Positions 21,830 to 45,687 of a stretch of 64,000 bases of DNA are shown piece by piece; positions within the stretch are counted from its first letter, which is position 1, and every line of letters starts with the position of its first letter. The notes below the pieces were generated by a model that made no database searches, was not told the DNA's origin, and worked only from the letters and a program-made list of their open reading frames with translations. The stretch is from a virus. The stretch covers positions 62,001-126,000 of IMG/VR virus record IMGVR_UViG_3300005747_000012; one strand, written 5' to 3'. The translations under genes were made by a program, and so were the position numbers.

Positions 21830-22188
21830 TACAATTTATCCTCACGTTTATCAAATTTAGGTATTTTTTTTAAACAATTATTTTTATTTAACCATCTAAT
21901 AGTAGCCTCTACCATCATCATATGCGGCAACTCTTCTTGAGTTACCTTTTTTCTTTTTTGCCCAAGAAAAATTGGCATTGAATCAATTGAAAATTTTGTT
22001 TTGGCAGAACCAATGATAGATCGTAAATCAAAATGATCCATTATGTAATCGCAAGTATTTAAATGTACATATTTATTCATAAGGTTACTAAGGCTTTCAA
22101 GCTGGTCTTTAAAACATTGGCTGTCAATATCTTCAAGAAATTGCCTCATATCTTTTTCCATTCTATATTTTAATTCGTCCTTACTCAT
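21829..22188 (-). CDS. Hypothetical protein (119 aa)
   Basis: Unknown protein starting MSKDELKYRMEKDMRQFLED, mostly helical. HMMMVEATIRWLNKNNCLKK lies near the C-terminus. The ATG at 22186-22188 overlaps the TGA of the SbcC-like gene (GCATGA), a coupling arrangement. A TTG three codons upstream is possible. A phage promoter motif lies 35 nt upstream, inside the SbcC-like coding sequence. Confidence 0.6.
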   Translation of the reverse strand: MSKDELKYRMEKDMRQFLEDIDSQCFKDQLESLSNLMNKYVHLNTCDYIMDHFDLRSIIGSAKTKFSIDSMPIFLGQKRKKVTQEELPHMMMVEATIRWLNKNNCLKKIPKFDKREDKL

Positions 22189-24218
22189 GCCACACAACTC
22201 TCTTCGTTAATTCTTTTTACTTTTATAATATCACAAACCATTTCTTTAACTTCTGAAGAATGATCAACCATTAATATTTTTTTATCAGTATTTAAATTTT
22301 TTAAAATCTCTAAGCATTCAATTTTAGATATAGAATCAAGGCCGTCAAAACCTTCGTCAATAATTAATAAATTAACACCTTTTTGAGTCATGCTTTCAAT
22401 CATTTCACCTATAGCTAAGTCCACAGCAAAATCAGCCGATGTACGCTCTCCACCAGACAAAGTTTTTATAGGCACTTTAGAATCGCCCTCAAGATTAATA
22501 ACAGCATTTATTTCGTTCTTAATAGACCCCGTTTTGGTTTGTTTAGCGTTTTCAAAAGAAATTACAGCATTGACCATATTAGGAATCATGTTGATGATTT
22601 CAGTAGCTCTGTTGCCAATATAACCAAGCGTATCTTGAAATTTTTGTAAAGTATAATTTTTAATTAGTCGAATTGATTCTTCTGATAAAATTACTTTTTG
22701 ATCAATATCATTAAGCTCATTTTGCCTAGATTCTAGGTCAGTTTTAAAATTTTGAATCTTAATATTGATATTTTCAAGGTCTCTTTCGTAGTTTTTAAGA
22801 GCATCTTGGTAAGCGTCTTTGATAGTCTTCATTTGTTGAATATCATTTTTACGCTTAACAATTTCAGCCATCATATCAGATTCTTTCTCTTTATATAGAG
22901 ATGTTGTTGTAGCATATCTCTGGTTGTAATCGTTTATAGCTTTTAAATATTCTTTATCAAGGTCATTAGTTTGCTGAATAAGTTCAGATTTTTTATTTTC
23001 AAGAGTTTCTAGTTGTTTAGTTTCTTCTTGATTTACTTTAATGTTTCTTTTAGCTTCCAAAAGTTGTTCAGCTTTTGTCTTCATTTCTATATAATGTGGA
23101 ATTTGACCTACTGCGTCTTTACAAGCATTTATTTCCATTCCCACTTCTGCAATAGCATATCTAAGCTCTACAAGTTTTTCTTCTGAAGTCCAGTTTTGCA
23201 TACAAGTAGGACAAGTGCCAGCTTCAATATGTTGATATTGCTCTTGAAGCTTTTTTATTTCAGTTTCTTTTTCAATAGCTTTATGTTTTAAATTATTTGC
23301 ATCGTCAATCTTTTTTTGTATTTTATACATTGCTGAAGTCATTTGTTGTATGTCTTGCTCTTTTTGGGTAAGATTGGTGTGCATTTTTTGTTTTAATTGT
23401 GAAATTTCTGTTTCAATATTTTTAACTTGGCCAAGTAATAGGGCTTTACCTTCAGTTTCTATCATTTCTGGTTTTTTACCTAAACTAGCAACATTATTTT
23501 CATATTGCCTATGTTCATTGCGAATAGCCTGCTCTAGTACATCAATACTTAGATTAATATCATCTTCAGTTGTAAAAAATGTAGGCTCTTGAGGTTTTTC
23601 TTTTTGTGCTAAGTAATCATTAAGTTGATTAATTGTATGTTTAATTTCAGTAATACTGCTTTCAAGCTTAATCTTTCTTGGTTTATATTGTTCTTTAAGT
23701 AGCTCATTCATTTTCTCAATTTTTTCTTGATATTTACCTAAGTCCAAACACTGGACAAGAAATTCATGGGATTGTTTTGGTGTTAAATTGAGAAAAAAGC
23801 CACCTTGTTTTTGGCGTTTATAACACATTGTTTTCAATAGATTTCGGTCTACGCCGATAATTTCATCTAATTTTTCTTCAGCAAGCTTGCTGTTTCCAGA
23901 TACGGTTCCTTCTGGTGTTTCAATGGTAAGTCCATCTTTTTTGGAACGGGTAATTGTAATCCCTCCCTCAAATTCACCCTGAACCCAGATAGGCGACTTA
24001 GTAATCCTACTCTGCAATTGTGTCGAAGGGATATCCGATATTCCAAGAAGGAAAGCGAGTGCTTCCACTGTTGTTGATTTCCCTGCTCCACTAGAGCCTC
24101 CTGTATTTGTATTCTCACCATCAATTTGAATTAGGTGACTTCGACTTTCGAGGTCAACTGTTTGTTTTTCAACAAACCTACCAATTCCTGAAAATGAGTA
24201 ATTTTTTAGTTTGAGCAT
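22185..24218 (-). CDS. SbcC/gp46-like recombination nuclease ATPase
   Basis: A 677-aa SMC/Rad50-family ATPase. Walker A GSSGAGKST is at 41-49. Long coiled-coil arms run from about 170 to 550, interrupted by a zinc hook CPTC at 336-339. The signature LSGGERTSADFAVDL and Walker B LLIIDEGFDGLD are near the C-terminus. It should pair with the SbcD-like nuclease at 26835-28508 to resect DNA ends or process branched replication products, as gp46/gp47 do in T4. The two subunits are separated here by about 2.6 kb with five genes between. Confidence 0.92.
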   Translation of the reverse strand: MLKLKNYSFSGIGRFVEKQTVDLESRSHLIQIDGENTNTGGSSGAGKSTTVEALAFLLGISDIPSTQLQSRITKSPIWVQGEFEGGITITRSKKDGLTIETPEGTVSGNSKLAEEKLDEIIGVDRNLLKTMCYKRQKQGGFFLNLTPKQSHEFLVQCLDLGKYQEKIEKMNELLKEQYKPRKIKLESSITEIKHTINQLNDYLAQKEKPQEPTFFTTEDDINLSIDVLEQAIRNEHRQYENNVASLGKKPEMIETEGKALLLGQVKNIETEISQLKQKMHTNLTQKEQDIQQMTSAMYKIQKKIDDANNLKHKAIEKETEIKKLQEQYQHIEAGTCPTCMQNWTSEEKLVELRYAIAEVGMEINACKDAVGQIPHYIEMKTKAEQLLEAKRNIKVNQEETKQLETLENKKSELIQQTNDLDKEYLKAINDYNQRYATTTSLYKEKESDMMAEIVKRKNDIQQMKTIKDAYQDALKNYERDLENINIKIQNFKTDLESRQNELNDIDQKVILSEESIRLIKNYTLQKFQDTLGYIGNRATEIINMIPNMVNAVISFENAKQTKTGSIKNEINAVINLEGDSKVPIKTLSGGERTSADFAVDLAIGEMIESMTQKGVNLLIIDEGFDGLDSISKIECLEILKNLNTDKKILMVDHSSEVKEMVCDIIKVKRINEESCVA
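22224..22234 (-). promoter_or_regulatory. Phage promoter motif GTGATATTATA inside coding sequence
   Basis: Full match to the recurrent element within the last codons of the SbcC-like gene (it encodes part of CDIIKV). It lies 35 nt upstream of the next start, in the same position relative to a gene as the intergenic copies. Confidence 0.5.
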
Positions 24219-26416: not shown

Positions 26417-26838
26417 TATTCCTCCGATAACTGTCCATTTGGCCCAATTTGAGGGGGTTGTGCTTTTAGCTTATCTTGACTTGGTTTGAACATAGAATAA
26501 CGCCTTACACCATTAACAAATACTTTGACTTCAATATCTACCCAAAACATTTGCCACACCCATGAAACTAAATTTCTACATCTAGCGTCAAAATTTTCGA
26601 TGACACCTTTTTTCTCATATCCTTTAGGCATCGTAACAAAAAACTCAACTAAATTTTGTTTTGTTGATTGCATTGTGGCTTTTGTTAAATCATATTTAAC
26701 CTCAACACCTTCAACATCATCAAAAACAATATACGGCCATTTTTGCAGGCTTTCCTGATGTACACTAGAGATTTCACCAGTTAGCATGGTAATTTTTCTC
26801 ATATCCTCTAGCATAGCTTTTACGGTTTCTGTTTTCAT
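26416..26838 (-). CDS. Hypothetical protein (140 aa)
   Basis: Mixed alpha/beta protein with several aromatic residues (LVSWVWQMFWVDIEVKVFVN) and a Pro/Gln-rich C-terminus. Its size and fold impression recall head-tail completion or virion proteins, but I cannot assign it. It overlaps both neighbours by 1-4 nt. Confidence 0.6.
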   Translation of the reverse strand: MKTETVKAMLEDMRKITMLTGEISSVHQESLQKWPYIVFDDVEGVEVKYDLTKATMQSTKQNLVEFFVTMPKGYEKKGVIENFDARCRNLVSWVWQMFWVDIEVKVFVNGVRRYSMFKPSQDKLKAQPPQIGPNGQLSEE

Positions 26839-28508
26839 ACTTCCCTCAAAAACTCTTTTATACTTTCTTTTTTAACACCCTCAATTGGCTGGAACTCTGT
26901 CTCAAGATATTTTTCAAGTGTTATAGAAGTATCTTTAATATCTTTGGCAACTTTAACATCAGTTGGCTTTACCTTAATACTAGCTTTATCTTTTAATTCT
27001 TTTTTAACTTTATTAATCCAAGCGGTTTTACCCTCAAGCACCACATAGTTTCTAGCATCTGGGTTAAGTATTGGCAATTCTTCACCTTCTTTAACTTCAT
27101 ATGAAGTAATTGGTGTAACTACATTTTCAGTTGAAAAAAATTTTTTTGATTTAACAGCACCAGTGTCTTCATGTTCAAATATCCAAATTCCTTTGGGTTG
27201 ATTAGCGTCTGCCATTGTATCCCATTTAGGAGTACCCGGATAAAAGCATTTTCCTACTTGCTGGCTTTTGTGAATGTGACCTGATATAATTTCTTGTTGC
27301 GGAACTAACGCAGGGTCAATTCCTTCCTCACTAAAAAACCCATTCTCATATTGAGCACCAGTAAACGTCTGGTGAGCAATAAGGCAACCTGTAACACCTT
27401 GTTCGTAAAGATATTTACAATCCTCTAAAAAACTTTTGTAATCTTCATAGTATGGCATATAGCCTATATTATCTATTTCTGTAGGTACGTCAATAATGTT
27501 TATGTTATATTTGTATTGCTCATCTAAAAGAGATACAGAATTTAAACCAGCATTTTTTGATTGCCCTAAAATCATGTCGTGATTTCCTACTAAGGCTATT
27601 ATGTCATATTGTTTTTGTATTCTTTTAAAAGTTTTTTTCCAAAAATCAAATACTTCTATTCTAATTACGCCGTGGGTATGGAACAAATCTCCTAAAAAAA
27701 CTATTGTAGATACGTTATTTTCTTTTGCTATTTTTACTATAAAATCTATTAATTTTTCACAATCTTTTAAATTATTTATTTGTAAATGTGGATCACCTAC
27801 ATATAAATATTTATTAAATTTTATTTTGTTTTCTATATAACTTTTTTTGTCTTTTATATAAAATGGTATCCTAATTAATTTTATGCCATTCTTTTTACAA
27901 ATGTCGTTTTTTATTTCATCTCTATTGTTTATTGTAAAAAAATCTTCTTTAAAAAAATCAGTATTTTGAAAATGTTGTTTTCCATCGTATTCAAAAGCTA
28001 ACTTTAATTCTTTACAATAGCCATCCAATTCTAATTTTTTTCCTGTCTTATCATTTACAAGCCAATCAGGTCTTTCTTTTGGAAATTTTTTACCAGTGAT
28101 ATCCTCAAATATTTCTCTACAATATTCTTCGTTTTTGTATATTTTATTTTTTAAATGAGGTATTATCCCATTTACTTTAAAAGAAAACAGTGTAGTTTCA
28201 TATTCTTTGTTGTTTGGGCCTAAAACTTTTAATTTTTCTTTATTGCCATTGTATTTTGTAGATAGTAGTTTGTAACCTTTTTCTTCAAAAAAACCCCTGA
28301 CTTCTTCTATGTTATATTGTCTTTTTCCTGCACAATAAGAACACCTGTGACCTTCTTTAAAAACCTTAAAAGACATCGGAAAAACATGTCCCTTATTACA
28401 TTCTATATCTAATTTTTGTAGTTGACCTTCGTATTCATTGGAAAGTAATTTATACCCTTCTTTTTCTATAGTATTTTTGACATACTTTAAAGTGTGTTTA
28501 TTTGGCAT
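26835..28508 (-). CDS. SbcD/gp47-like nuclease fused to homing-endonuclease module
   Basis: A 557-aa two-part protein. Residues 1-228 look like a Vsr/EDxHD-type homing endonuclease: two zinc-ribbon-like repeats (GYKLLSNEYEGQLQKLDIEC with GHRCSYCAG), then ELDGYCKELKLAFEYDGKQH (nuclease core) and GIKLIRIPFY. From about 231 it is a Mre11/SbcD metallophosphoesterase: YVGDPHL, FLGDLFH, LVGNHDM, GHIHKS. No in-frame ATG, GTG or TTG precedes the phosphoesterase start, so the fusion seems to be translated as one chain. The SbcD part should partner the SbcC-like ATPase. Related endonuclease modules interrupt the terminase. Confidence 0.82.
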   Translation of the reverse strand: MPNKHTLKYVKNTIEKEGYKLLSNEYEGQLQKLDIECNKGHVFPMSFKVFKEGHRCSYCAGKRQYNIEEVRGFFEEKGYKLLSTKYNGNKEKLKVLGPNNKEYETTLFSFKVNGIIPHLKNKIYKNEEYCREIFEDITGKKFPKERPDWLVNDKTGKKLELDGYCKELKLAFEYDGKQHFQNTDFFKEDFFTINNRDEIKNDICKKNGIKLIRIPFYIKDKKSYIENKIKFNKYLYVGDPHLQINNLKDCEKLIDFIVKIAKENNVSTIVFLGDLFHTHGVIRIEVFDFWKKTFKRIQKQYDIIALVGNHDMILGQSKNAGLNSVSLLDEQYKYNINIIDVPTEIDNIGYMPYYEDYKSFLEDCKYLYEQGVTGCLIAHQTFTGAQYENGFFSEEGIDPALVPQQEIISGHIHKSQQVGKCFYPGTPKWDTMADANQPKGIWIFEHEDTGAVKSKKFFSTENVVTPITSYEVKEGEELPILNPDARNYVVLEGKTAWINKVKKELKDKASIKVKPTDVKVAKDIKDTSITLEKYLETEFQPIEGVKKESIKEFLREV

Positions 28509-28531
28509 TTATTTCAATCCTTTTTTTATAC

Positions 28532-28858
28532 TTAGTCATTTTTATCCTTAATAAAAATTACATCTTTCATTTCACCAACAATAAAGCCGTCAGGAAATTC
28601 TTCGCTTTCTAAAATTTGTTTGGCCCAAGCCTTAGTGTATAAAGTTTCTTCTTTAAAATAAATTTTTGTACCTTTATTAATCCACTTAATATTATTGCCT
28701 ATTTCAATAGCTGCGTCAACTAAAAGTTCAAGCCCTTCAACTCCAACCTTTTGTTTTGTTATGGCAAAACCTGTGACCGCCTGATGTTCTTCAAGTTGCC
28801 TGATTTTTTTGTGAGGTTTCAAAATTAAATTACCATTAAAAGATGATTTTTCATTCAT
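28532..28858 (-). CDS. Hypothetical protein (108 aa)
   Basis: Beta-rich small protein (GNLILKPHKKIRQLEEHQAV; GTKIYFKEETLYTKAW; DGFIVGEMKDVIFI). The pattern resembles GroES/co-chaperonin-like folds: a lysine-rich start, a G-x-x-I-x-F turn and a closing strand EMKDVIFIKD where bacterial GroES has a similar ending. Because a GroEL-like protein is encoded at 42.2 kb this is a tempting but unproven match. It overlaps the sigma gene stop by 4 nt. Confidence 0.55.
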   Translation of the reverse strand: MNEKSSFNGNLILKPHKKIRQLEEHQAVTGFAITKQKVGVEGLELLVDAAIEIGNNIKWINKGTKIYFKEETLYTKAWAKQILESEEFPDGFIVGEMKDVIFIKDKND

Positions 28859-29887: not shown

Positions 29888-32440
29888 TTACACCTTTATA
29901 AATTTTATTTCATTTGTTGTTTCTTTATACATAGAAAGTCTTTTTTGCAAATGATTTTCTAAAAGACTTATGTTGCTTACTCTAAAATCATAAATTTTTG
30001 AATAAGGCTTGGGCCTGTGATAGCCCTTGTATTTACTGTTTTCAAGAATACGGACACTTCTACCAACAGCCCCCTGCTTAGTTCTGGTTTCAGAGCCACC
30101 GCCTACCCAATTTATAGTATTGTGTGTGCAGTACATGTTGGTTCCTGTTGCAATGCAAGAAGTTCCAATAAGAACTTTCACTTGTCCAAGATTAAAAGTT
30201 TCAACTGCCTCATCGACTTTCCGAGTTTCCAGACCAAATCTAGCAGCATCAGCTTTTGATGCAGAATGTACATATTCAAACGGAACATTTAGTCTGTCTA
30301 CTAACATTCTAATTTGCTCCAATTCCTCCACCAAAATTAAAGTGCTTTCTTGAGCTTGATTCCAAGCTGAATTTGCAATCTTGGCCGCTATATCGGCGAT
30401 GTTTGAATTGTATAAAAATTGTTTTCTTTTAGCTTTTAGTGGGTCTCTGTAATTTTTAACATCTTTACTTGTAGTTTCAAAAACAAAAAATTTTACAGGA
30501 CAAATATAACCACCGTCTACGGCTTCCTTTGTTGGTAGTTCATATACTTTTTTTCCAATAATTGATTCTAGCAACTTGTCTTTTCCGTCACCCCTAACCT
30601 GAGTACCTGATAAAAAAAATCGGTATGGAACACTGTTTAGCACACCATGAAATACTGTTTCAAGAGTTTCAGCCGCCAGTGTGTGGGATTCATCGCCAAT
30701 TACTACATCAGCATTAGCAAAGAAATCATAGGCTTCAGTACCCGGTTTAAGCATTGTTAGTGACTTTGACACGCACACTGTAAACAATTTACCTAATCTT
30801 TTTTTACCGCCACCATAAGCTCCGACATTAGATTTGCCAAAATGGTGCTCAAATTTCTCCAAAATTTCTAGAAATATAGACTTACTAGGTGTAACTATTA
30901 CGGTCTTAAGACCTAGCTCACGGGCTAGTGTCAAAATAATAGCTGTCTTACCTGAGTTATGGGTAACGGTAAAATCATCCATAACATATAAATTATCGTT
31001 GTCAACTTCAAAGCCAAAATATTCATTTTCTGGCAATTGCTTTACTTTAAAACCTGTTCTTAATACATTTTTTACTTGCTTTCTGGGTTTTGCTTTTTTT
31101 CTTTCTAATATAACTGGTATTCTATTAATATCACCAGAAATTGTAATTCTATAATATGTTCCTTCGATTCCATTTTGACTTTTCTTTTTTTCTTTTTTTT
31201 GGTAAGCTGCAAAACCAAGTGATCTTGCTATAAAAAGTATATCATCGGATAATTCTTTGTTTTTCTGAGAAATTTCATAATAATTATTTCCTAAGTATCC
31301 ATCGGAATCTATTACACCAGCCAATAATTTAAGTCTTGTTTCTTCTGAATTTATTTTAAAATCTTTTGGAATATGTTTGTTTTTTATTAAGTCGTAATGT
31401 TTTAGATTGTTTCTTAGTGCATTTAACCCTTTTCCTCTAAGTGGATTATACATGCAATAAGTTTTAGACAAATTGTTTTCTGATATAACTTCTTCTCTTA
31501 TCATTAAACCAAGTTGCCTTGCGTATTCCATCCATTTTTCTTTAATTTCGCAATCCATTGTAGTTAAAGCTGGACCATCTGAATTCCCATCGCCAAGCCA
31601 AATACCTAATATATAGGGGTCGATAGCGGTTAATTTGCTTTTAAAATCAATACCTGTTCTATATAGTTTATATCTATGTTTAAATGATTTTGTTTGTTTT
31701 AAATAATCTTTTACTGATATATTTACAATTGGATTTGTACCTTTAAAATCACTTCTTCTTTTTTTGTTTTTTATACGATATTGAGATTGATTATTAGTTC
31801 TTTGCAAGGATAATATATGCCCCATATTAACTATAAAAGACTCCCCTTTAACTGGAATAATTTTTGCCATTTTTTCTTTGCCTCTATGTAGTTTTAATAC
31901 TTTACGAGGTTTAGAATCTGGCCCCATTAACAAATCACCAACAACAATATCTTCCACTTTTTTTAAAGAACCATCATACATTAATATTTCTTGTCCCTTA
32001 ACGTGACATCCCGTGCAAAGCTCTACACAGCCATGTTTTGCCTGAATAAGACGTTCTACAGATTTTTTCTGGTATGGATATAGCTCAAATGGCAAAGTCT
32101 TTCTCCACGGCATTTTGCGTGGCTCTGGGTAGCTAATACGGTTGTGTATATCAAAACTATACCCAGACAAATATGGTAAAGAACCCGGATGAAAAGCCAA
32201 TTTTTGGTTAGAATCTAGTGTTAGCATACAAGTTTTTAATTTAGATTCTAGTTCTTTCTTTCTCAAATCATAAGTATGAGGCTTGTTTTGCTGTAACCAT
32301 CTGTTTTTTTTAAGTTTTTGCAAAGCAAATTGGGCTGACGTATCACTATAAGTCAGGCTTTTTTTCAAATCATCGACAACTTCCCTATTGGGAGTTTCGA
32401 GGTAACATTTGGTTGGATTTTCTATTGTAATCTTTATCAT
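29888..32440 (-). CDS. uvsW: UvsW-like SF2 helicase interrupted by an intein
   Basis: An 850-aa precursor. The host protein is an SF2 DNA helicase: an N-terminal UvsW-type region, ELYPYQKKSVERLI before motif I, Walker A split as CTG / SGKTAIILTLARE, DESH box in VVIGDESHTLA, FFLSGT (motif III), and GTSCIATGTN plus RTKQGAVGRSVR (motifs V and VI). Residues 145-495 are an intein in the P-loop. The start ATG is at 32438-32440, only 7 nt from a promoter motif with no ribosome binding site, so the message is probably leaderless. UvsW-type helicases unwind R-loops and drive branch migration late in infection. Confidence 0.9.
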   Translation of the reverse strand: MIKITIENPTKCYLETPNREVVDDLKKSLTYSDTSAQFALQKLKKNRWLQQNKPHTYDLRKKELESKLKTCMLTLDSNQKLAFHPGSLPYLSGYSFDIHNRISYPEPRKMPWRKTLPFELYPYQKKSVERLIQAKHGCVELCTGCHVKGQEILMYDGSLKKVEDIVVGDLLMGPDSKPRKVLKLHRGKEKMAKIIPVKGESFIVNMGHILSLQRTNNQSQYRIKNKKRRSDFKGTNPIVNISVKDYLKQTKSFKHRYKLYRTGIDFKSKLTAIDPYILGIWLGDGNSDGPALTTMDCEIKEKWMEYARQLGLMIREEVISENNLSKTYCMYNPLRGKGLNALRNNLKHYDLIKNKHIPKDFKINSEETRLKLLAGVIDSDGYLGNNYYEISQKNKELSDDILFIARSLGFAAYQKKEKKKSQNGIEGTYYRITISGDINRIPVILERKKAKPRKQVKNVLRTGFKVKQLPENEYFGFEVDNDNLYVMDDFTVTHNSGKTAIILTLARELGLKTVIVTPSKSIFLEILEKFEHHFGKSNVGAYGGGKKRLGKLFTVCVSKSLTMLKPGTEAYDFFANADVVIGDESHTLAAETLETVFHGVLNSVPYRFFLSGTQVRGDGKDKLLESIIGKKVYELPTKEAVDGGYICPVKFFVFETTSKDVKNYRDPLKAKRKQFLYNSNIADIAAKIANSAWNQAQESTLILVEELEQIRMLVDRLNVPFEYVHSASKADAARFGLETRKVDEAVETFNLGQVKVLIGTSCIATGTNMYCTHNTINWVGGGSETRTKQGAVGRSVRILENSKYKGYHRPKPYSKIYDFRVSNISLLENHLQKRLSMYKETTNEIKFIKV
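30956..32008 (-). mobile_element. LAGLIDADG intein in the helicase P-loop
   Basis: 351-aa protein-splicing element. It begins at Cys (CHVKGQEILMYDGSLKK) and ends with the penultimate His-Asn (DDFTVTHN), with Ser as the first C-extein residue, so all three splicing residues are intact. It contains two LAGLIDADG helices, LGIWLGDGNSD and LAGVIDSDGYL, so the homing nuclease looks complete. It inserts between Gly and Ser of the Walker A motif. It is homologous to the intein at 46302-47297 (shared YDGS-KK, VGDLLMGPDSKPRKVL). Confidence 0.95.
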
Positions 32441-32453
32441 ATAACTATATAAT
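32425..32453 (+). promoter_or_regulatory. Sigma-70-type promoter for the endolysin
   Basis: Plus-strand TTGTAA, a 17-bp spacer and TATAAT (32448-32453) 22 nt upstream of the endolysin start. The -10 box is the complement of the minus-strand phage motif, so one sequence serves both directions. Confidence 0.55.
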
Positions 32454-32458
32454 ATCAC
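32448..32458 (-). promoter_or_regulatory. Phage promoter motif GTGATATTATA (helicase)
   Basis: Copy of the recurrent element ending 7 nt before the helicase ATG. It overlaps a plus-strand TATAAT for the divergent endolysin gene. Confidence 0.6.
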
Positions 32459-32474
32459 AAAAAAAGGAGAGATT

Positions 32475-32894
32475 ATGTCTTTTAAATATAGCGCCAAATC
32501 TCTAGCAAAATTAAATACTTGCCACCCAGATTTGCAAAAAATACTTAAAAAAGCAATAAAACACTATGATATCACTATCTTAGAAGGTATTCGTACCAAA
32601 GAATGCCAAGAAGAGCTAGTTCGTACCGGTATGTCAAAAACTATGGACTCTAAACATTTAAAACAAGCTGATGGCTATTCTCATGCCGTTGACTGTGCTC
32701 TTTGGCCGGTTGATTGGAATGACCGTGAGAGATTTGTATTTCTACAAGGTTATCTCAAGGGTTTAGCTGACCAAATGAAAGAAGCTGGTGAAATTAGCCA
32801 CTCTCTTCGCCTTGGTGTAGATTGGGACGGTGATGGTAATATCAAGGAACATTCTTTCTTTGATGGGCCTCACATTGAACTTTCCCTAAAGTAA
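32475..32894 (+). CDS. M15 (VanY/T5-type) endolysin peptidase
   Basis: The only plus-strand gene supported here. A 139-aa peptidoglycan L,D- or D,D-endopeptidase of family M15. KTMDSKHLKQADGYSHAVD has the S-x-H...A-x-D zinc motif, and FFDGPHIELS the closing H with the general-base Asp/Glu nearby (GVDWDGDG). AAAAAAGGAGAGATT is a strong ribosome binding site. No signal peptide or wall-binding domain, so release probably depends on a holin. The 3' end overlaps the convergent COQ7-like gene by 53 nt, so lysis expression may be restrained by antisense transcription. Confidence 0.88.
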   Translation: MSFKYSAKSLAKLNTCHPDLQKILKKAIKHYDITILEGIRTKECQEELVRTGMSKTMDSKHLKQADGYSHAVDCALWPVDWNDRERFVFLQGYLKGLADQMKEAGEISHSLRLGVDWDGDGNIKEHSFFDGPHIELSLK

Positions 32895-38465: not shown

Positions 38466-39929
38466 TTATACATCAAAAAAAATACTCTTTTTTTCCTGTG
38501 ATTTCCTTGACTTATGTTTTTGACCGCCTGTTAAGTCATTGATTTTGTTTTGCAAATCTCTAGGTCTTCCTTTAATATTTTCAAGATCATAGCTGAACAA
38601 AACTTTAGAGCCTTTACCAAACATACTATAAAAAAAGTATCTAATCATATCCATAATATCAGCAGTTCCATCTTTACCATGCTCTGGCTTACCATCAATA
38701 GGATTTCCCTTACCATCAAGTTTCCATTTATAAGTCTCAAAAGCATCAAAAACACGTTCATTATTACGTGTTTTTAGTACCTTAAAATGTCTATTATTGT
38801 TTGCATCTACAATTTTAGATTGAACAGCAGTAATACCATCCACAACAGATTCCACACCTTTTTTAACACCTATAGCTGGAATACGACCTACCGAAGTGTT
38901 TGTTTTCCTTAACATCTTAATATAAGCTGGATAGTTCGAGTCACAAAACCATTTGTTAACCCTATATATTTCCGTAAGCTCTTTTACTTTTTGAACAATT
39001 TCAGGTATTTCCATGTCTGGAGCTGAAGTAATATCAACAAGCCATGATTTTCCACCAGCTATTTTGGCAAATACACCCAAAGCAGTTTCGTCAGTATTTC
39101 CCCAATCGGCAGCACCATAAAATTCAATTCCAAGATTGTGCATAAATTGAACTAATTCATCTAGGGTCTTGCCCTCAACTTCTTCACCTGACAAATACTC
39201 CCAAGATTCATCAATACTGATAGCATTATCAACAATATCAAATCTAGGGTAAACAAGACCGCTAGAGCTTGGCTTGTTACACAATAGCTGTGCCTCACCC
39301 ATTTCAGGCGAGGTTTGTTTAAAGTTATTGTGAACCGCATAGATAGGTTTATAAAGATCACCTACATCATTTTGCGGTCGGTCTACAAGAGAGTTTTTCA
39401 TAACCGATAACATCGGATGGTCAGCAATCCCTGAATAAACTTTTACCGCTTCATATTTATGTCTTGATTCTTCATTAAGTTCTTCAAACTCTTCAGGAGA
39501 TAAATTTCTTAATGGAAGCTCCCTACCAACATATCTTGTTACTTTTTCTTCATTTTTTTTGGCCTCTGATTCTGGAATACGTTCAGTCACATCAATAATG
39601 TTCCAACGTAAAATTTCTCCACCAGATCGCTCTGTATCTTTAAGTGTTTTCTCCATTAATCCACCGGCATACTTACGAGTGGAAAGATAGACGGTTAGCG
39701 GAAAATACCCTTTATAAACACACGGAATCATTTTTGCTTCTTCCAATGCTCTTGGGTCTTGAACAACATCTATCTCATCCATAAACAGCATTGGAACATG
39801 TTCCGAATTGTGGGTTAATATACCATTAGCAAAATAATTGTGATTTCCTTCAACTTCAAAGTCATAAGTAGTAAAAGACTGAGAAGTTTCTATTTCTTCT
39901 ATTTTTAAAATCTCTATTTCTTCTAACAT
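38466..39929 (-). CDS. Large terminase C-terminal half with C-intein
   Basis: A 487-aa protein. The first 41 residues are the C-terminal part of an intein: YDFEVEGNHNYFANGILTHN, with the His-Asn pair intact and Ser following. The remainder is the C-extein of the large terminase. Walker B is VPMLFMDEID, the coupling region is VYLSTRKYAG, and an RNase H-like nuclease carries GIEFYGAADWGNTDE, WFCDSNYPAYI and a late D-x-x-D (GTADIMDMIR). ATG at 39927-39929 overlaps the stop of the upstream gene (ATGTTAG) with GGAG 7 nt before. Trans-splicing with 39923-42172 would restore the packaging motor. Confidence 0.9.
   Translation of the reverse strand: MLEEIEILKIEEIETSQSFTTYDFEVEGNHNYFANGILTHNSEHVPMLFMDEIDVVQDPRALEEAKMIPCVYKGYFPLTVYLSTRKYAGGLMEKTLKDTERSGGEILRWNIIDVTERIPESEAKKNEEKVTRYVGRELPLRNLSPEEFEELNEESRHKYEAVKVYSGIADHPMLSVMKNSLVDRPQNDVGDLYKPIYAVHNNFKQTSPEMGEAQLLCNKPSSSGLVYPRFDIVDNAISIDESWEYLSGEEVEGKTLDELVQFMHNLGIEFYGAADWGNTDETALGVFAKIAGGKSWLVDITSAPDMEIPEIVQKVKELTEIYRVNKWFCDSNYPAYIKMLRKTNTSVGRIPAIGVKKGVESVVDGITAVQSKIVDANNNRHFKVLKTRNNERVFDAFETYKWKLDGKGNPIDGKPEHGKDGTADIMDMIRYFFYSMFGKGSKVLFSYDLENIKGRPRDLQNKINDLTGGQKHKSRKSQEKKSIFFDV
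39807..39929 (-). other. C-terminal intein segment (41 aa)
   Basis: Contains splicing blocks F and G (YDFEVEGNHNYFANG, ILTHN) and starts its own open reading frame. First extein residue is Ser. Partner block A/B segment begins at 41677. Confidence 0.88.
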
Positions 39930-41677
39930 TCCAAACTCCACTTCCGGTGTCCGTAATCATATATTTTATACAAAGCTCTTGAATGCCCCAGAAACTTTCT
40001 ACTAAACACGCCTCCTTCTGCTTGTGCTTTTTCTGTAGGATATTTGTTTAGTATATCCGGGTCATTTATTTTTCTACACTTAAATCGCCACAATCTTTTT
40101 TGGAAATCGGTATAATAATAGCTAGGCTCTGTTGTTTGAGTAATTTCTTTAAACCCTAATTTTTGATAAGTATTTCCAAGGCTCAATCTGTTATTGCTGT
40201 ATGTGATCAATTTTTTATTATATTCTTTTATAAAACACTTGATTATTTTACTAGCATTTCCATATATTTTAAGGCCTGATTTAGTCGCAAACCGGGCTAT
40301 TTCCCAGTAGTTTTTGTTATTGAAGGGAACCCTAAAAGACATACATGAAACAAGTTCATCCCCATCAAATAGGCCATATGCGAAACTTGCTTGTACATGG
40401 CCGTCTAGATGGTATTTATCAAAAAAAGATTTAAACCCTATATTCTTGTTAATTTTTTTTATTTCTAACTTTGATGCCCTCATTTTTTTATCATAAATAC
40501 CCAGTCTACTTTTGATCATAGATTTGACCAGTTCTTGTTTTAAAGGATCACTCCACTCATCTTCAAATATAGCTAGTATATTTATGTTTTTTTGATTTAT
40601 TTTACAAGCCTTTTCTATATTTATTTTTTTAGCATTTTTCTTTACTTTTTCACTGTGCCAATAAAGACCGTCGAATTCTACTCCAAATTTAAACTCTGGA
40701 ATATAAATATCAATCTCTAATGGATGAATAATATCTCTATTGTTAATTTCTATTTTTCCCTTATAAATAGTTTTTATATACCCAACAATTTCTTGGTGTG
40801 CTTTTGAATAAGGTCTATAACAATGTTTGCATCTTTTTCCATGGTTGTAAAAATTACTAAACATAATCATTGTTTTGTGGTCATTTGGACATATTACGCT
40901 TATTGGCTCATATTGGTTTTTGTATTGTTTTAAATCTGTTTTATAACCTTGTTCTTGAATATATTTTACAACAAAATTTGTATCATGTCTTTTTTTGTGG
41001 CAATCACCTTGGCTACACCTAGCATTTTTATGTTTAAAATCATGATAGCTAACACTATACTCATGACCGTTATCGCATATTGTTTGTATTTTTTGCTTGG
41101 TATTTTTATAGCTCTCTTTTTCGATATTAACCCTATATTTCTTAGACTCAAAAAAAGCCTTGATTTTTTCAAAAGAGATAGACTTACAGGCTAAACACCC
41201 TCTTCTTTTTTTGTTTTTAAACTCGTTAAACGAACACTTTTTTAAATGACCATCCTTGCAGGTCATCTCTAGTATAGTATTAGTGTTTTTATACTTGTCT
41301 TTTGTTGTTTTTAGTTTATACCCTTTTTTTTCTATAAACTCTTTGGCTTTTTCAAAACCAAGCGCACTACTAGCATCTCTATTTTTACGAAAAGCTTTTT
41401 CTCCAACTTTTATGTCTTTAGCTTTTACATATCCCCTGCCTTTAATATATATTTTGTGATCAAGAGAACACTCCAATATACCGTTAGATGTAGTAATTTT
41501 TATAATTTTTTTATGTTTATTTTTTTGCGTACAGATAACAGGTTTATATTCTTCATATTTTTTATTGTGATTATGGGACCAGAACAGAAAATCTTCACCA
41601 TTTTTTAGTCTTTTATATATTGTACTAGCAGATAAATTACCTTTGTTAGTTTTTATACTTGTATTGCCTTTTACACA
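39923..41677 (-). mobile_element. Intein with EDxHD/Vsr-like homing endonuclease (N part)
   Basis: From the first intein Cys (TGT at 41675-41677) to the stop that breaks the chain. The endonuclease occupies the place where cis-inteins usually carry LAGLIDADG. The related fragment at 48564-48719 and the module in 26835-28508 belong to the same family. Confidence 0.85.
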
Positions 41678-42172
41678 GTTCATCCCGGCTACCGTAGCAA
41701 CAACAATTCTTAAATAAATAGCATCACCTTTACTAGTGAGCCATTCAATTTTGGCTTTGCTATCAGACAGCTTTCGCCAACCATTTGCTTCAAGATATGG
41801 CGATAGTTTTCTAAAAAACGAGTTAACGTATTGGATTGCTTTTTCTGATTGTGATTTAATCGCTGCACCGTGAGCAACGGATATTTCAAAATGAAGCATA
41901 CATAATACTTCAATAGCCGCAGCAGACAGAGTTTTATAGGAGTCACGGGAAGCAAGCATACAAACTTGTGGAACATCCCGACTATTACCCGTTTTCATCA
42001 ACTCATAGATACGCCACATGGCATCAACCGGGCCATGTGTAGAACCGGGATATACGACACCCATTGGAAACTTAATATCTAAAAAGATATGCATCCAATT
42101 TCTAAGTTCCTCTGGCCCATTCAAAGGCTTTAAAACTAGTTCGTTTTTTAGCTTTTCTATTTCTTCTGACAT
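39923..42172 (-). CDS. Large terminase N-terminal half + N-intein + Vsr-like homing endonuclease
   Basis: A 749-aa chain. Residues 1-165 are terminase N-extein, with CMLASRDSYKTLSAAAIEVL as the P-loop-like ATPase motif, ending VVATVAGMN. Residues 166 to about 265 are intein blocks A and B (CVKGNTSIKT; GILECSLDHKIYI). About 272-455 are three zinc-ribbon-like repeats (GYKLKTTKDKYKN, CKDGH, CLACKS). HPLEIDIYIPEFKFGVEFDG (around 483-502) is the Vsr/EDxHD nuclease core. A GNAT-like C-terminal region follows. The terminase reading frame is not resumed. The C-half is a separate overlapping gene. Confidence 0.88.
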   Translation of the reverse strand: MSEEIEKLKNELVLKPLNGPEELRNWMHIFLDIKFPMGVVYPGSTHGPVDAMWRIYELMKTGNSRDVPQVCMLASRDSYKTLSAAAIEVLCMLHFEISVAHGAAIKSQSEKAIQYVNSFFRKLSPYLEANGWRKLSDSKAKIEWLTSKGDAIYLRIVVATVAGMNCVKGNTSIKTNKGNLSASTIYKRLKNGEDFLFWSHNHNKKYEEYKPVICTQKNKHKKIIKITTSNGILECSLDHKIYIKGRGYVKAKDIKVGEKAFRKNRDASSALGFEKAKEFIEKKGYKLKTTKDKYKNTNTILEMTCKDGHLKKCSFNEFKNKKRRGCLACKSISFEKIKAFFESKKYRVNIEKESYKNTKQKIQTICDNGHEYSVSYHDFKHKNARCSQGDCHKKRHDTNFVVKYIQEQGYKTDLKQYKNQYEPISVICPNDHKTMIMFSNFYNHGKRCKHCYRPYSKAHQEIVGYIKTIYKGKIEINNRDIIHPLEIDIYIPEFKFGVEFDGLYWHSEKVKKNAKKINIEKACKINQKNINILAIFEDEWSDPLKQELVKSMIKSRLGIYDKKMRASKLEIKKINKNIGFKSFFDKYHLDGHVQASFAYGLFDGDELVSCMSFRVPFNNKNYWEIARFATKSGLKIYGNASKIIKCFIKEYNKKLITYSNNRLSLGNTYQKLGFKEITQTTEPSYYYTDFQKRLWRFKCRKINDPDILNKYPTEKAQAEGGVFSRKFLGHSRALYKIYDYGHRKWSLEC

Positions 42173-43956
42173 TACGCTCTCAAATTAGCTTCATTAATAA
42201 ATTCATCAGCATGATCAGTTGCCCTTCTAAAATCTTGTTCCTCTTTCCATGCCTGAAGTTCAAGCTGACTATCTCTTGGGCTGGCAACAATACCACCAAG
42301 ATTACCCATAACACTAGCAATAGATACGCTGTTTTCAAGTGCTTGCACTACTGCCATAGTAGCATCAAAAATTCCTAGTTTTTCAGGGTCGCCAAACTCC
42401 ATGTTTTCAATATCATATACATATTTTTGATTTTGAAAATAATCAATGATAGTTTTTTCAATTTCTTCATTATTGTACCCAGCATTTTCAAGAAGTTTTC
42501 TTAGTGGTTCCATAAGACTTGGAATTAAGACCTGTTGAACAAGATTGTAGTCTCTATCATCTTCAGAGTAACTAGTTTCCAAAAACAATACTAAATTTGT
42601 TAATACTCTACAACCACCCGGCAACGCACCGTGAGCAATTGCACTTCTTACCGCACACACAGCGTCTTCACATCTATCATGTCTTTCTTTAAGCTCACCG
42701 TTAGATGCACCGTATATTTTAAGTTTGGCAATACCATTAGTTAGCTTACCAAGTCTTTCTTCAAGATCAAGCTTTTCAGCAATACTTGCAGCATTTTTAA
42801 GTTGAGTTTCAAGCTCATCTGCTCTTTCTTCGATATCCAGTTCGCTTGGCTCACCAACTACAGTACTTCTAAATCTATAATACTCAAACGTATCCATTCC
42901 GTTACCAAGGTCGTCAATAGTAGCTTTAGCTACTTGATTAGTCATGTCAAATATTTTAGCTCCGGTAAAGGCAGATAGGTCGTATAAAAATTCTAATCTA
43001 GAGTTTTTAATATTAGTCATTGGCGTAGCCATTGGTACAACATTTAATGTTGTAGGATTACTAAAATTAAACGCAAGATTTGTCAAAACATTTTCTGAAA
43101 AGCCGTGTGAAACAAGAACAAGATTGCTAAACTCAGAGTTTCCTTCATTTACAAACTTATGTCCAAGTTCTTCAATAATTGGCAGGAAAGAAACAAGATC
43201 GTTTACAATACCATCAAACAAAAGAAACAACGGTCTATCTAGTTTACAGCGTTGATTGGCCTTGTCGTTAATAAATGCTGTATGAAATTTGCCAATTGAC
43301 TCTTCAAAGCCAATAGCAATTGGTAGTCCTTCAATAAGCTCTACTTCATAACCGCTTGGCCCTGAAAGTTCTTGAATAGTAACGTGAGAAGACTCTCCAA
43401 AACCTACTTTGTCAAAAGCTTCCATTACAGCGTCAGCCATTTCTTCATCACCATTAGCAGATACTTGAGCTACTTTTTTTAGCAAGCCTTGATTGTCTAT
43501 ACTAATTTCAATTGACTGATCTTTTACCTTGGGAATAAGTTGATTTTTAACAATTTTATTCATAACCCTAGTGGCACGCTGAGGTGACTCTTTGGGATTA
43601 GCCTCACAATATCTAAATAGAGACTTTACCATAGTGGCAGAGATAATTGTAGTCGCAGTTGTACCGTCACCAGCTTCGTTGGCGGTCCTTTTAGCAGCAT
43701 CTCTAGTTTGTTCAATAATCAAGTGCTTATAAGGATCAGCACTACCTAAAGAACTGAAAATAGTAACGCCATCCTTGGTATTCTTGTTTGGAATACCGGG
43801 ATATTCGCTTTCAATAAGTGTTGTTTTACCACCCGGCCCATAGCTAGACCCTACAATTTCGGCAATTTCATCCATAGTTTGAGAGGTAATTTGTTTAAGC
43901 CTATTTGGGCTTGAGCAATACATTTTAGCTGGGGTTTTTACTTTTTTAACAGTCAT
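42172..43956 (-). CDS. groEL: GroEL-like chaperonin
   Basis: A 594-aa group I chaperonin-type protein (host GroEL is about 548). Equatorial motifs are SSYGPGGKTTLI, AGDGTTATTI, and LEERLGKLTNGIAKLKIYGA followed by CAVRSAIAHGALPGG. KTPAKMYCSSPNRL replaces the usual N-terminus. The apical domain is divergent. Some jumbo phages encode such single-ring chaperonins to fold their own proteins. A GroES-like partner is not certain, though the 108-aa gene at 28532 has a faintly similar pattern. Strong AAAGGAG and a phage promoter motif precede it. The stop overlaps the terminase start by 1 nt. Confidence 0.92.
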   Translation of the reverse strand: MTVKKVKTPAKMYCSSPNRLKQITSQTMDEIAEIVGSSYGPGGKTTLIESEYPGIPNKNTKDGVTIFSSLGSADPYKHLIIEQTRDAAKRTANEAGDGTTATTIISATMVKSLFRYCEANPKESPQRATRVMNKIVKNQLIPKVKDQSIEISIDNQGLLKKVAQVSANGDEEMADAVMEAFDKVGFGESSHVTIQELSGPSGYEVELIEGLPIAIGFEESIGKFHTAFINDKANQRCKLDRPLFLLFDGIVNDLVSFLPIIEELGHKFVNEGNSEFSNLVLVSHGFSENVLTNLAFNFSNPTTLNVVPMATPMTNIKNSRLEFLYDLSAFTGAKIFDMTNQVAKATIDDLGNGMDTFEYYRFRSTVVGEPSELDIEERADELETQLKNAASIAEKLDLEERLGKLTNGIAKLKIYGASNGELKERHDRCEDAVCAVRSAIAHGALPGGCRVLTNLVLFLETSYSEDDRDYNLVQQVLIPSLMEPLRKLLENAGYNNEEIEKTIIDYFQNQKYVYDIENMEFGDPEKLGIFDATMAVVQALENSVSIASVMGNLGGIVASPRDSQLELQAWKEEQDFRRATDHADEFINEANLRA

Positions 43957-43991: not shown

Positions 43992-44783
43992 TTACAGCAA
44001 TTTCCAATTTACATTTTTTTTAGCTTCTTGAATTAAATTTAATATTTTTTGATTTTTGATTTTTTTAGCTTCTTCTTCTATAGAAATTAAAGTTTTCATT
44101 TCTACATATATATTATTTTTAAGTTTAACCTCAATTTTTTCCTTTAACTTAAATGTTTTTTTATTGCTTTTTGATATATTATCAAAAGCGTATAAATATT
44201 GCAAATTGGTATAGTGATTTAACTTTAAAATTTCACCCATTGTTTTCGCTGAAGATATAGGCTTTATGTGGTCTATATGTATTTTTTCAATTGCATCTTT
44301 AATATCTATATTGTAATTTTTTTTAAATGTTTTATTTAGGTAATTTTGTAAAAAGTCATAATTACAACCTAATATATCAGACTCTATTTTATCCCATTTT
44401 AAATTTGATGGAAAACCTTTTCTATATAAACTTTGCTTAATAAGATTTATAATTCTTGATTTAAAAGAGTGTTTTTCATTCCATTTTTTTACACCTTTTC
44501 TATTTTTTTCTTTAACTTTTTCAGGGTTATTTTTGTGCCATCTTGCAGCATTTTCTTTCATTTTTTCTTTATTTTTTTCATAATATTTTTTATGATATGA
44601 TTTTATTTTTTCTTTATTTTTTTTATGATATGATTTTATTTTTTCTTTATTTTTTTTAACCCATTTATCTTGACCTTTTTTTCTACACTCTTTACACCAA
44701 TATGAAAGGCCATCCTTTGATTTTTTTAATTTTGTAAAAAAAGATAAATCTTTTTTTTCTTTACACTTACTACACTCTTTCAT
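43992..44783 (-). CDS. HNH homing-type endonuclease (263 aa)
   Basis: N-terminal double zinc-knuckle (MKECSKCKEKKDLSFF, CKECRKKG). Then comes a long Lys-rich linker with an 11-residue repeat (NKEKIKSYHKK), and a C-terminal HNH core KIHIDHIKPISSAKTMGEI followed by NLQYLYAFDNISKSNK. This arrangement is typical of free-standing phage homing endonucleases. It sits between the chaperonin and a small zinc-finger gene and is more AT-rich than both, consistent with recent arrival. No intron or interrupted gene is visible next to it. Confidence 0.8.
   Translation of the reverse strand: MKECSKCKEKKDLSFFTKLKKSKDGLSYWCKECRKKGQDKWVKKNKEKIKSYHKKNKEKIKSYHKKYYEKNKEKMKENAARWHKNNPEKVKEKNRKGVKKWNEKHSFKSRIINLIKQSLYRKGFPSNLKWDKIESDILGCNYDFLQNYLNKTFKKNYNIDIKDAIEKIHIDHIKPISSAKTMGEILKLNHYTNLQYLYAFDNISKSNKKTFKLKEKIEVKLKNNIYVEMKTLISIEEEAKKIKNQKILNLIQEAKKNVNWKLL
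44591..44656 (-). repeat. Two tandem 33-bp repeats in the HNH gene
   Basis: Exact-looking tandem copies with a period of 33 bp. They encode the NKEKIKSYHKK repeat in the linker between zinc knuckle and nuclease. Confidence 0.8.
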
Positions 44784-44971: not shown

Positions 44972-45687
44972 ATAATCTCCACTGGTTTGTGACTGTAAAT
45001 ATATCTATCATCTAACGATGATGCGTTTACAAACATAGTATTTTTTTTATAAGAAACCCCATATTCTTCATGAATATGTCCAAAAACGTGCATCATTGGT
45101 TTAACTCTATTTTCAATGGTATCCATCAAATGTGGACATCCAACGTGCTCAACATCACCACTAATACCATGCCAACGTGGAACTGTATCTCTAATTCCAT
45201 ATGGTGGGCCATGAGTAATTAAAATATCAGTATCATTAGGTATCATATCCCAATGTGGCTTAATTAATGGATGTTTTTTAAACCCATGATATGGGTCGCC
45301 ATTTGGTAAATGTTCAATATCTCTATTAAAAGCCCAATTACAGAAAGTTGGTTGTACTGGACTTCCCCAAATTTTAATTTCTTCTTTGGTCCACGGACAT
45401 TTAATTGTAACACCAGAATCATTAAGATAAATTACACCATATTTACGGCACATTTCTTCAAATCTTTCAGGTTCTTTTTCAAAGCCCCAATCATGATTTC
45501 CGGCAATCATGATTTTCCAATTAAAATCAAGTGAACCATACCATTTCAAAAACGGCTTAATTTCACCAGATTGACCACGGCCAGTAGCGTCACCAGCATG
45601 AAGGATAATATCACCCTTTCCACAGTCAATTTCTTTATGACGATTGTGTGTGTCTGATATGCAAACTATTTTCATTTTTTTTTCCAT
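44944..45687 (-). CDS. Metallophosphoesterase (calcineurin-like, 247 aa)
   Basis: Complete set of phosphoesterase motifs: ISDTHNRHKE (D-x-H), ILHAGDATGRG (G-D), MIAGNHDWGF (G-N-H-D), ILITHGPPYGIRD (H), VFGHIHEEYG (G-H-x-H). The spacing and the HGPPYG motif match the MPPED-type subfamily found in many phages and bacteria, of uncertain substrate. It starts at ATG 45685-45687 in a TAATG overlap with the AAA+ gene. Confidence 0.85.
   Translation of the reverse strand: MEKKMKIVCISDTHNRHKEIDCGKGDIILHAGDATGRGQSGEIKPFLKWYGSLDFNWKIMIAGNHDWGFEKEPERFEEMCRKYGVIYLNDSGVTIKCPWTKEEIKIWGSPVQPTFCNWAFNRDIEHLPNGDPYHGFKKHPLIKPHWDMIPNDTDILITHGPPYGIRDTVPRWHGISGDVEHVGCPHLMDTIENRVKPMMHVFGHIHEEYGVSYKKNTMFVNASSLDDRYIYSHKPVEIIWEDGPKHK

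Follow-up and report, generated by a model that had tools for sequence, protein, structure and literature searches.

The locus lies on the minus strand of the window, the 64,000-nt stretch of viral DNA that was analysed. A single open reading frame (26835-28508, 557 aa) begins there with an ATG at 28508 and ends with a stop at 26835, spanning 557 codons that encode a Vsr-like endonuclease followed by the nuclease SbcD. A Shine-Dalgarno-like AAGGA, read from the sequence, precedes it at 28518-28522 (minus strand). The endonuclease part corresponds to residues 1-228 (27825-28508, minus strand), and the SbcD/gp47 part to residues 233-557 plus the stop (26835-27812, minus strand). The partner subunit SbcC/gp46 is an ordinary separate gene (22185-24218, minus strand; PHROG 77, E 2.1e-47), and a search of the 129,267-bp contig, which may be incomplete, gave no second SbcD.

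The downstream part was identified as SbcD/gp47 by independent searches, in agreement with the original prediction. It matched Pfam Metallophos over residues 235-414 of the fusion (E 1.7e-9), the PHROG 100 family "SbcD-like subunit" (E 6.7e-37) and, by profile search, SbcD/Mre11 chains in the PDB (E 1.7e-15); the best Foldseek matches were all SbcD/Mre11, with E. coli SbcCD at E 1.1e-14. The calcineurin-like phosphoesterase motifs (GDxH, GDxxH, GNHD, H, and GHxH) are all present, and the invariant SbcD residues are, in A1 numbering, D12, H14, G46, D47, H50, N82, H83, D84, H184, and H186. The predicted model of this part contains the SbcD/Mre11 fold, including the capping domain, mostly with pLDDT > 88 and with lower values in the blocks ~311-340 and 511-557. 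In the AlphaFold model, the last helix of the endonuclease (221-229) is followed by a three-residue link and then by the first SbcD strand (233-237).

The upstream part combines a single intact zinc ribbon with one degenerate repeat and a Vsr-like core. Residues 1-228 matched PHROG 559, labelled HNH endonuclease, with an E of 5.5e-33, as well as further phage families labelled homing endonuclease. On the basis of a 30-member alignment, 11/11 invariant positions are kept in the window endonuclease (C56, C59, D162, E173, D175, G176, H179, D197, K200, C204, and R213). The second zinc-ribbon repeat lacks its cysteines both in the window and in the viral contig L033, described below, and neither of the two enzymes has the C-terminal extension found in those of the phages BvP and Bobb. 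The endonuclease half was poorly modelled in the full-length AlphaFold model, and reached a mean pLDDT of 89 when modelled alone. The name "Vsr-like" is based on motifs and family resemblance, the fold match of the model to Vsr 1cw0 being weak (E 0.41, prob 0.60); no PDB relatives of the endonuclease, including the solved EDxHD structures, were found by sequence, and no PADLOC defence family was matched. Judging from the conserved residues, both active sites of the fusion look intact.

As originally predicted, the first ~228 residues belong to the same family as the endonuclease found in the terminase ORF of the same window, to which they are homologous with an E of 7e-10. The terminase large subunit (38466-42172, minus strand) is broken into two ORFs in a split-intein "fractured gene" arrangement. 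One ORF (39923-42172, minus strand) contains the N-terminal part of the terminase, an intein-like N part, and the Vsr-like endonuclease, and the other (38466-39941, minus strand) an intein-like C part and the C-terminal part of the terminase. The parallel drawn with the terminase stands as far as the related endonuclease is concerned, but not as a comparable fusion.

The same open frame was found in four other viral contigs (L002-L005), of which L002-L004 are close to the window and L005 is diverged. A further, long-diverged viral contig (L033) carries the same endonuclease-SbcD architecture, with a GTG start, a length of 554 aa and the frame open across the join; compared with the window, its endonuclease is 58% identical and its SbcD about 39%. 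The fusion is not confined to this phage. The contigs are all metagenomic, and a fused frame could in principle be produced by an assembly or sequencing artefact. We regard this as scarcely credible: the same frame is present in the window and in four other contigs, the diverged L005 among them, and L033 is an independent, diverged fusion. Since the frame is open in L002-L005 and across the same join in L033, an error in a single assembly is excluded.

In the endonuclease tree, the sequences from the window, L005, and L033 form one clade (support 100/99); because they unite with such high support, a single origin of the fused type, followed by its spread, is probable. Using the window, L010, and L033 fusions as queries, no fusion was found in sequenced phages, where the only record covered over more than 80% was BvP, in which the two parts are separate ORFs. 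In bacterial genomes, 220 pattern matches included 0 relatives. No description of a homing endonuclease-SbcD fusion turned up in the literature searched, a collection with few of the subscription journals.

We then considered from which codon SbcD could be translated. Between codon 150 and 60 codons past GDPH, the only in-frame ATG, GTG, or TTG codons of the window are TTG 161, which lies within the endonuclease core, and TTG 275, which comes after the first SbcD motif (GDPH); in L005, the sole in-frame standard start in that span is codon 275. The earlier claim that SbcD has no ATG, GTG, or TTG of its own was thus upheld, none being present between codons 161 and 275. At the SbcD junction, the window and L005 have ATA/ATT codons only, and the window has nothing like a Shine-Dalgarno sequence ahead of the SbcD part. 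The junction of L033 also lacks a standard SbcD start, and an in-frame CTG preceded by AGGA could start SbcD there. Read in this way, the phage is apparently unable to make SbcD without making the endonuclease.

SbcD homologues both with the extension (L002-L005 and L033) and without it (L006-L009) were obtained, as had been proposed for checking the fusion. The uninserted proteins start with MYKVLVVGDPH (L006), MNKVLRVGDPH (L007), MYKTLVIGDPH (L008), and MNRILRVGDPH (L009), and in L006-L008 sbcD begins before the end of its upstream neighbour, which is the gene also found in the window. By sequence comparison, ATG ACT AAG TAT (MTKY) at 28528-28539 (minus strand) of the window was recognized as what is left of the original sbcD start. 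This relict opens a short frame, read from the sequence as MTKYKKRIEINAK* (28498-28539, minus strand), whose stop lies just inside the start of the endonuclease. The order in the window is therefore the MTKY relict, the endonuclease, and then TTA TAT GTA GGT GAT (LYVGD) from position 27806. When the relict ATGACTAAGTAT and the downstream TTATATGTAGGT are joined, they give MTKYLYVGDPH, equal in length to the start of the uninserted relatives. Because the two pieces rebuild a start of this length, the insert must lie about four codons into sbcD, separating the gene from its own start. In L005, the relict ATG has decayed to ATA and the fusion frame is intact, which indicates that the relict start is dispensable.

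The conserved upstream neighbour (28532-28858, minus strand), the end of which overlaps the relict sbcD start, has no family match; by eye it looks like a small co-chaperonin gene, with no Pfam, PHROG, or NCBIfam match. In many relatives, the start of sbcD either overlaps the upstream stop or comes shortly after it, which suggests that the upstream gene and sbcD are translationally coupled. An insert at the sbcD start must either restore this coupling through an overlap or supply translation through a fusion.

Known ways in which a homing endonuclease is accommodated were also evaluated. An intein was rejected, as the family scan found no Hint splicing domain in the fusion ORF, and the same scan returned Hom_end_hint for the helicase ORF of the window. 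An intron-encoded homing endonuclease was rejected too: no self-splicing intron was found around the endonuclease, with no credible Rfam match at either gathering or permissive thresholds, and the relict start is lost in L005. A free-standing homing endonuclease does not fit a frame that runs on into SbcD with no stop of its own. These results agree with the original prediction that there is no obvious splicing route. Removal of the insert, by an intron or by translational bypassing, would yield a normal SbcD starting with MTKYLYVGDPH, and in its favour the relict and the downstream sequence, once joined, make up a start whose length fits exactly. We nevertheless consider removal very improbable. 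The loss of the relict in L005, where it reads ATA, together with the absence of a credible Rfam match even at a permissive E, argues against splicing; furthermore, the endonuclease frame occupies nearly the whole insert, in frame with SbcD, and known translational bypassing covers tens of bases.

The comparison of the window with L005 points to a recent exchange. From likelihood breakpoints, the mismatch between the two is 3.2% within 28531-27281 and 24.5% in the flanks. Coherently with these values and with those of dS, the block recently common to both (27281-28531, minus strand) includes the endonuclease and the first ~530 nt of sbcD. On Nei-Gojobori counts, dS is 1.28 in the upstream gene and 0.096 in the endonuclease, and along SbcD it rises from 0.16 in the first part through 0.56 in the middle to 0.79 in the last part. 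A block of low divergence within diverged flanks is what homing would leave behind when a break within the gene is repaired with co-conversion, and it suggests, although indirectly and by sequence comparison, that the element is mobile. Two other stretches of high identity between the window and L005 lie within otherwise diverged DNA, at the 3' end of sbcD (26830-26927, 97% identical) and at the 5' end of sbcC (23927-24127, 92-94% identical), and are perhaps separate exchanges.

Within the endonuclease, 11 synonymous and 6 nonsynonymous changes separate the window from L005 (dN/dS 0.11, p 2.5e-5), which indicates purifying selection on this part. An active enzyme, a frame on which SbcD depends, or the two together would all lead to such selection, which taken alone cannot separate these cases.

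The phylogeny of SbcD was consistent with a mosaic gene. For the last part (window SbcD residues 196-325), the window and L005 are sister to the uninserted L006-L008 (91/84), and placing them with L033 is rejected (p-AU 0.015). For the first part (residues 1-145), a group of the window, L005, and L033 is obtained (79/98), with L033 on a long branch; the alternative to this grouping is not rejected (p-AU 0.097). The window SbcD is 41-48% identical to those of L006-L008 in the first part and 56-63% in the last. A natural interpretation is that the endonuclease moves jointly with the first half of SbcD, which is well supported for the window and L005 and moderately for L033.

Other endonucleases were found at the start of sbcD. 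Genes of the Endonuclease VII type overlap the SbcD start in L044, L057, and L073, and free-standing Vsr-like genes lie directly upstream of sbcD in the Bacillus phages BvP and Bobb and in the Klebsiella phage KP13-7. The genes of these three phages belong to the same endonuclease superfamily as that of the window and occupy the same spot at the 5' end of sbcD, but they are separate ORFs with their own stops and with the SbcD ATG kept, whereas in the window the two are fused. One origin for the Vsr-like endonucleases located at sbcD in the window, L033, BvP, and Bobb was rejected (p-AU 0.002), and because BvP and Bobb fall outside the fused-type clade, the site at the sbcD start was occupied more than once. 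On this comparison, the 5' end of sbcD/gp47 is a place repeatedly hit by unrelated endonucleases, mostly free-standing. In L010 (5305-6714), a GIY-YIG endonuclease at this site shares the frame of SbcD, with the SbcD ATG retained; the SbcD of this contig has diverged from those of L006-L008 in its first part (46-50%), the last part being 75-88% identical.

We consider it probable that a mobile endonuclease has captured the start of sbcD, so that the fusion would be the only form of SbcD. A Vsr-like homing endonuclease gene would have entered sbcD (gp47) about four codons in, displacing its start and leaving the old ATG upstream. The endonuclease would cut uninserted sbcD alleles, and the repair of the break would copy the endonuclease together with the first half of sbcD, a co-conversion supported by the block shared with L005. 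As read in the sequence, the endonuclease provides the ribosome-binding site, the start codon, and the frame and, having no stop, continues into SbcD. Given the missing starts, we infer that the SbcD protein would exist solely as an endonuclease-SbcD chain. A stop or a frameshift in the endonuclease would then also destroy SbcD, and the selfish gene may gain from this lock-in by being shielded from decay. Among the three readings offered originally, "tolerated cargo" is the nearest to this scenario, but it understates a mobile element that is under purifying selection, stands in place of the sbcD start, and would be locked in.

A fusion selected as a cut-and-resect homing enzyme would add to this explanation and not exclude it; we hold such selection to be possible, though rather unlikely. 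The chimera would then be, with the same reserve, a self-contained homing machine in which one chain, dimerised through SbcD, cuts DNA at a specific site and, together with SbcC, initiates resection of the break. SbcD/Mre11 is a dimer, and its dimerisation would present two endonuclease domains, both types of active site being apparently preserved. The EDxHD enzyme I-Bth0305I dimerises on a DNA target almost 60 bp long (PMC3943268), and T4 Gp46/Gp47 appears critical in break resection (PMC3016280) and is possibly used in homing (PMC2988022). The fusion also persists in two diverged lineages, but the missing start codon explains this persistence equally well, and the other endonucleases at the same site manage without a fusion.

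The endonuclease part could also have been domesticated, no longer homing and serving SbcCD as a DNA-binding or nuclease accessory. The cysteines missing from the second zinc-ribbon repeat in the window and L033, the absence of the BvP/Bobb C-terminal extension, and the purifying selection on this part would agree with it. The domesticated DNA-binding extension of the original prediction is not favoured, however, and we find this reading doubtful: the invariant nuclease residues are all intact, exactly this block was recently transferred between diverged phages, and the uninserted relatives have an SbcD without the extension. About equally doubtful, in our opinion, is that SbcD is also, or mainly, made separately from a non-standard codon near the junction. 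The CTG of L033 with its upstream AGGA speaks for it, as does the ATG retained at the SbcD start of L010 behind the in-frame GIY-YIG endonuclease; against it are the ATA/ATT codons and the lack of a Shine-Dalgarno-like sequence at the junction in the window and L005.

Homing endonucleases are usually thought to spare the host gene, through splicing out or an intergenic location. The proposed capture of sbcD suggests a third route, in which the element lands within a needed gene and becomes its start. Tying a selfish frame to an essential-type function would explain how it escapes decay after its targets fill. Uninserted, free-standing, and fused alleles of one site all exist, and the locus offers a natural fusion for asking whether the coupling of break and resection raises homing. 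If the cut-and-resect reading were true, a selfish element would have been joined to the repair enzyme on which it depends.

Split-intein fractured genes with Vsr-like endonucleases were reportedly described by Dassa in 2009. Like these genes, including the terminase of the window, the sbcD fusion has a related endonuclease inside a conserved phage gene and reading in frame with one part of that gene; in the former, however, the split intein restores the host protein, whereas no intein domain was found in the sbcD fusion. The literature on T4-type phages describes endonucleases that are intron-borne or free-standing, as well as insertions that divide a gene into separate polypeptides (PMC2988022). 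MobE in nrdA of the Aeromonas phage Aeh1 and MobA in T4 gene 60 lie, as in the window, inside the coding region of a key gene, the function of which survives without a self-splicing element (PMC2988022), but in both cases the gene is divided over separate polypeptides, whereas the window keeps the larger part of sbcD fused to the endonuclease. Like the endonuclease of the window, I-Bth0305I is a phage homing endonuclease in which multi-domain DNA-binding regions accompany a Vsr-type core (PMC3943268), but it is intron-encoded and is not fused to a host protein, and sequence searches with the window endonuclease matched none of the solved EDxHD structures. In HEG-islands and in the HK97-type HNH upstream of the terminase, endonucleases are likewise tied to essential cargo and co-opted (PMC10448857), although the cargo is not translationally fused. 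Mimivirus R555, an Mre11/Rad50 fusion, is another virus-borne fusion involving Mre11/SbcD (PMC3175470), but its partner is Rad50 at the C-terminus, whereas that of the window is a homing endonuclease at the N-terminus.

The window contains further candidate mobile elements, all on the minus strand. A helicase gene (29888-32497) includes a full intein with Hint/LAGLIDADG by family match, and an AAA+ ATPase gene (45687-47678) a full intein with Hint/LAGLIDADG by eye; the two ORFs share DNA that is ~80% identical across 93 bases. An HNH-like ORF, recognized by eye, is located at 43992-44783, directly upstream of a chaperonin-like gene (42172-43956), and is possibly another free-standing homing endonuclease.
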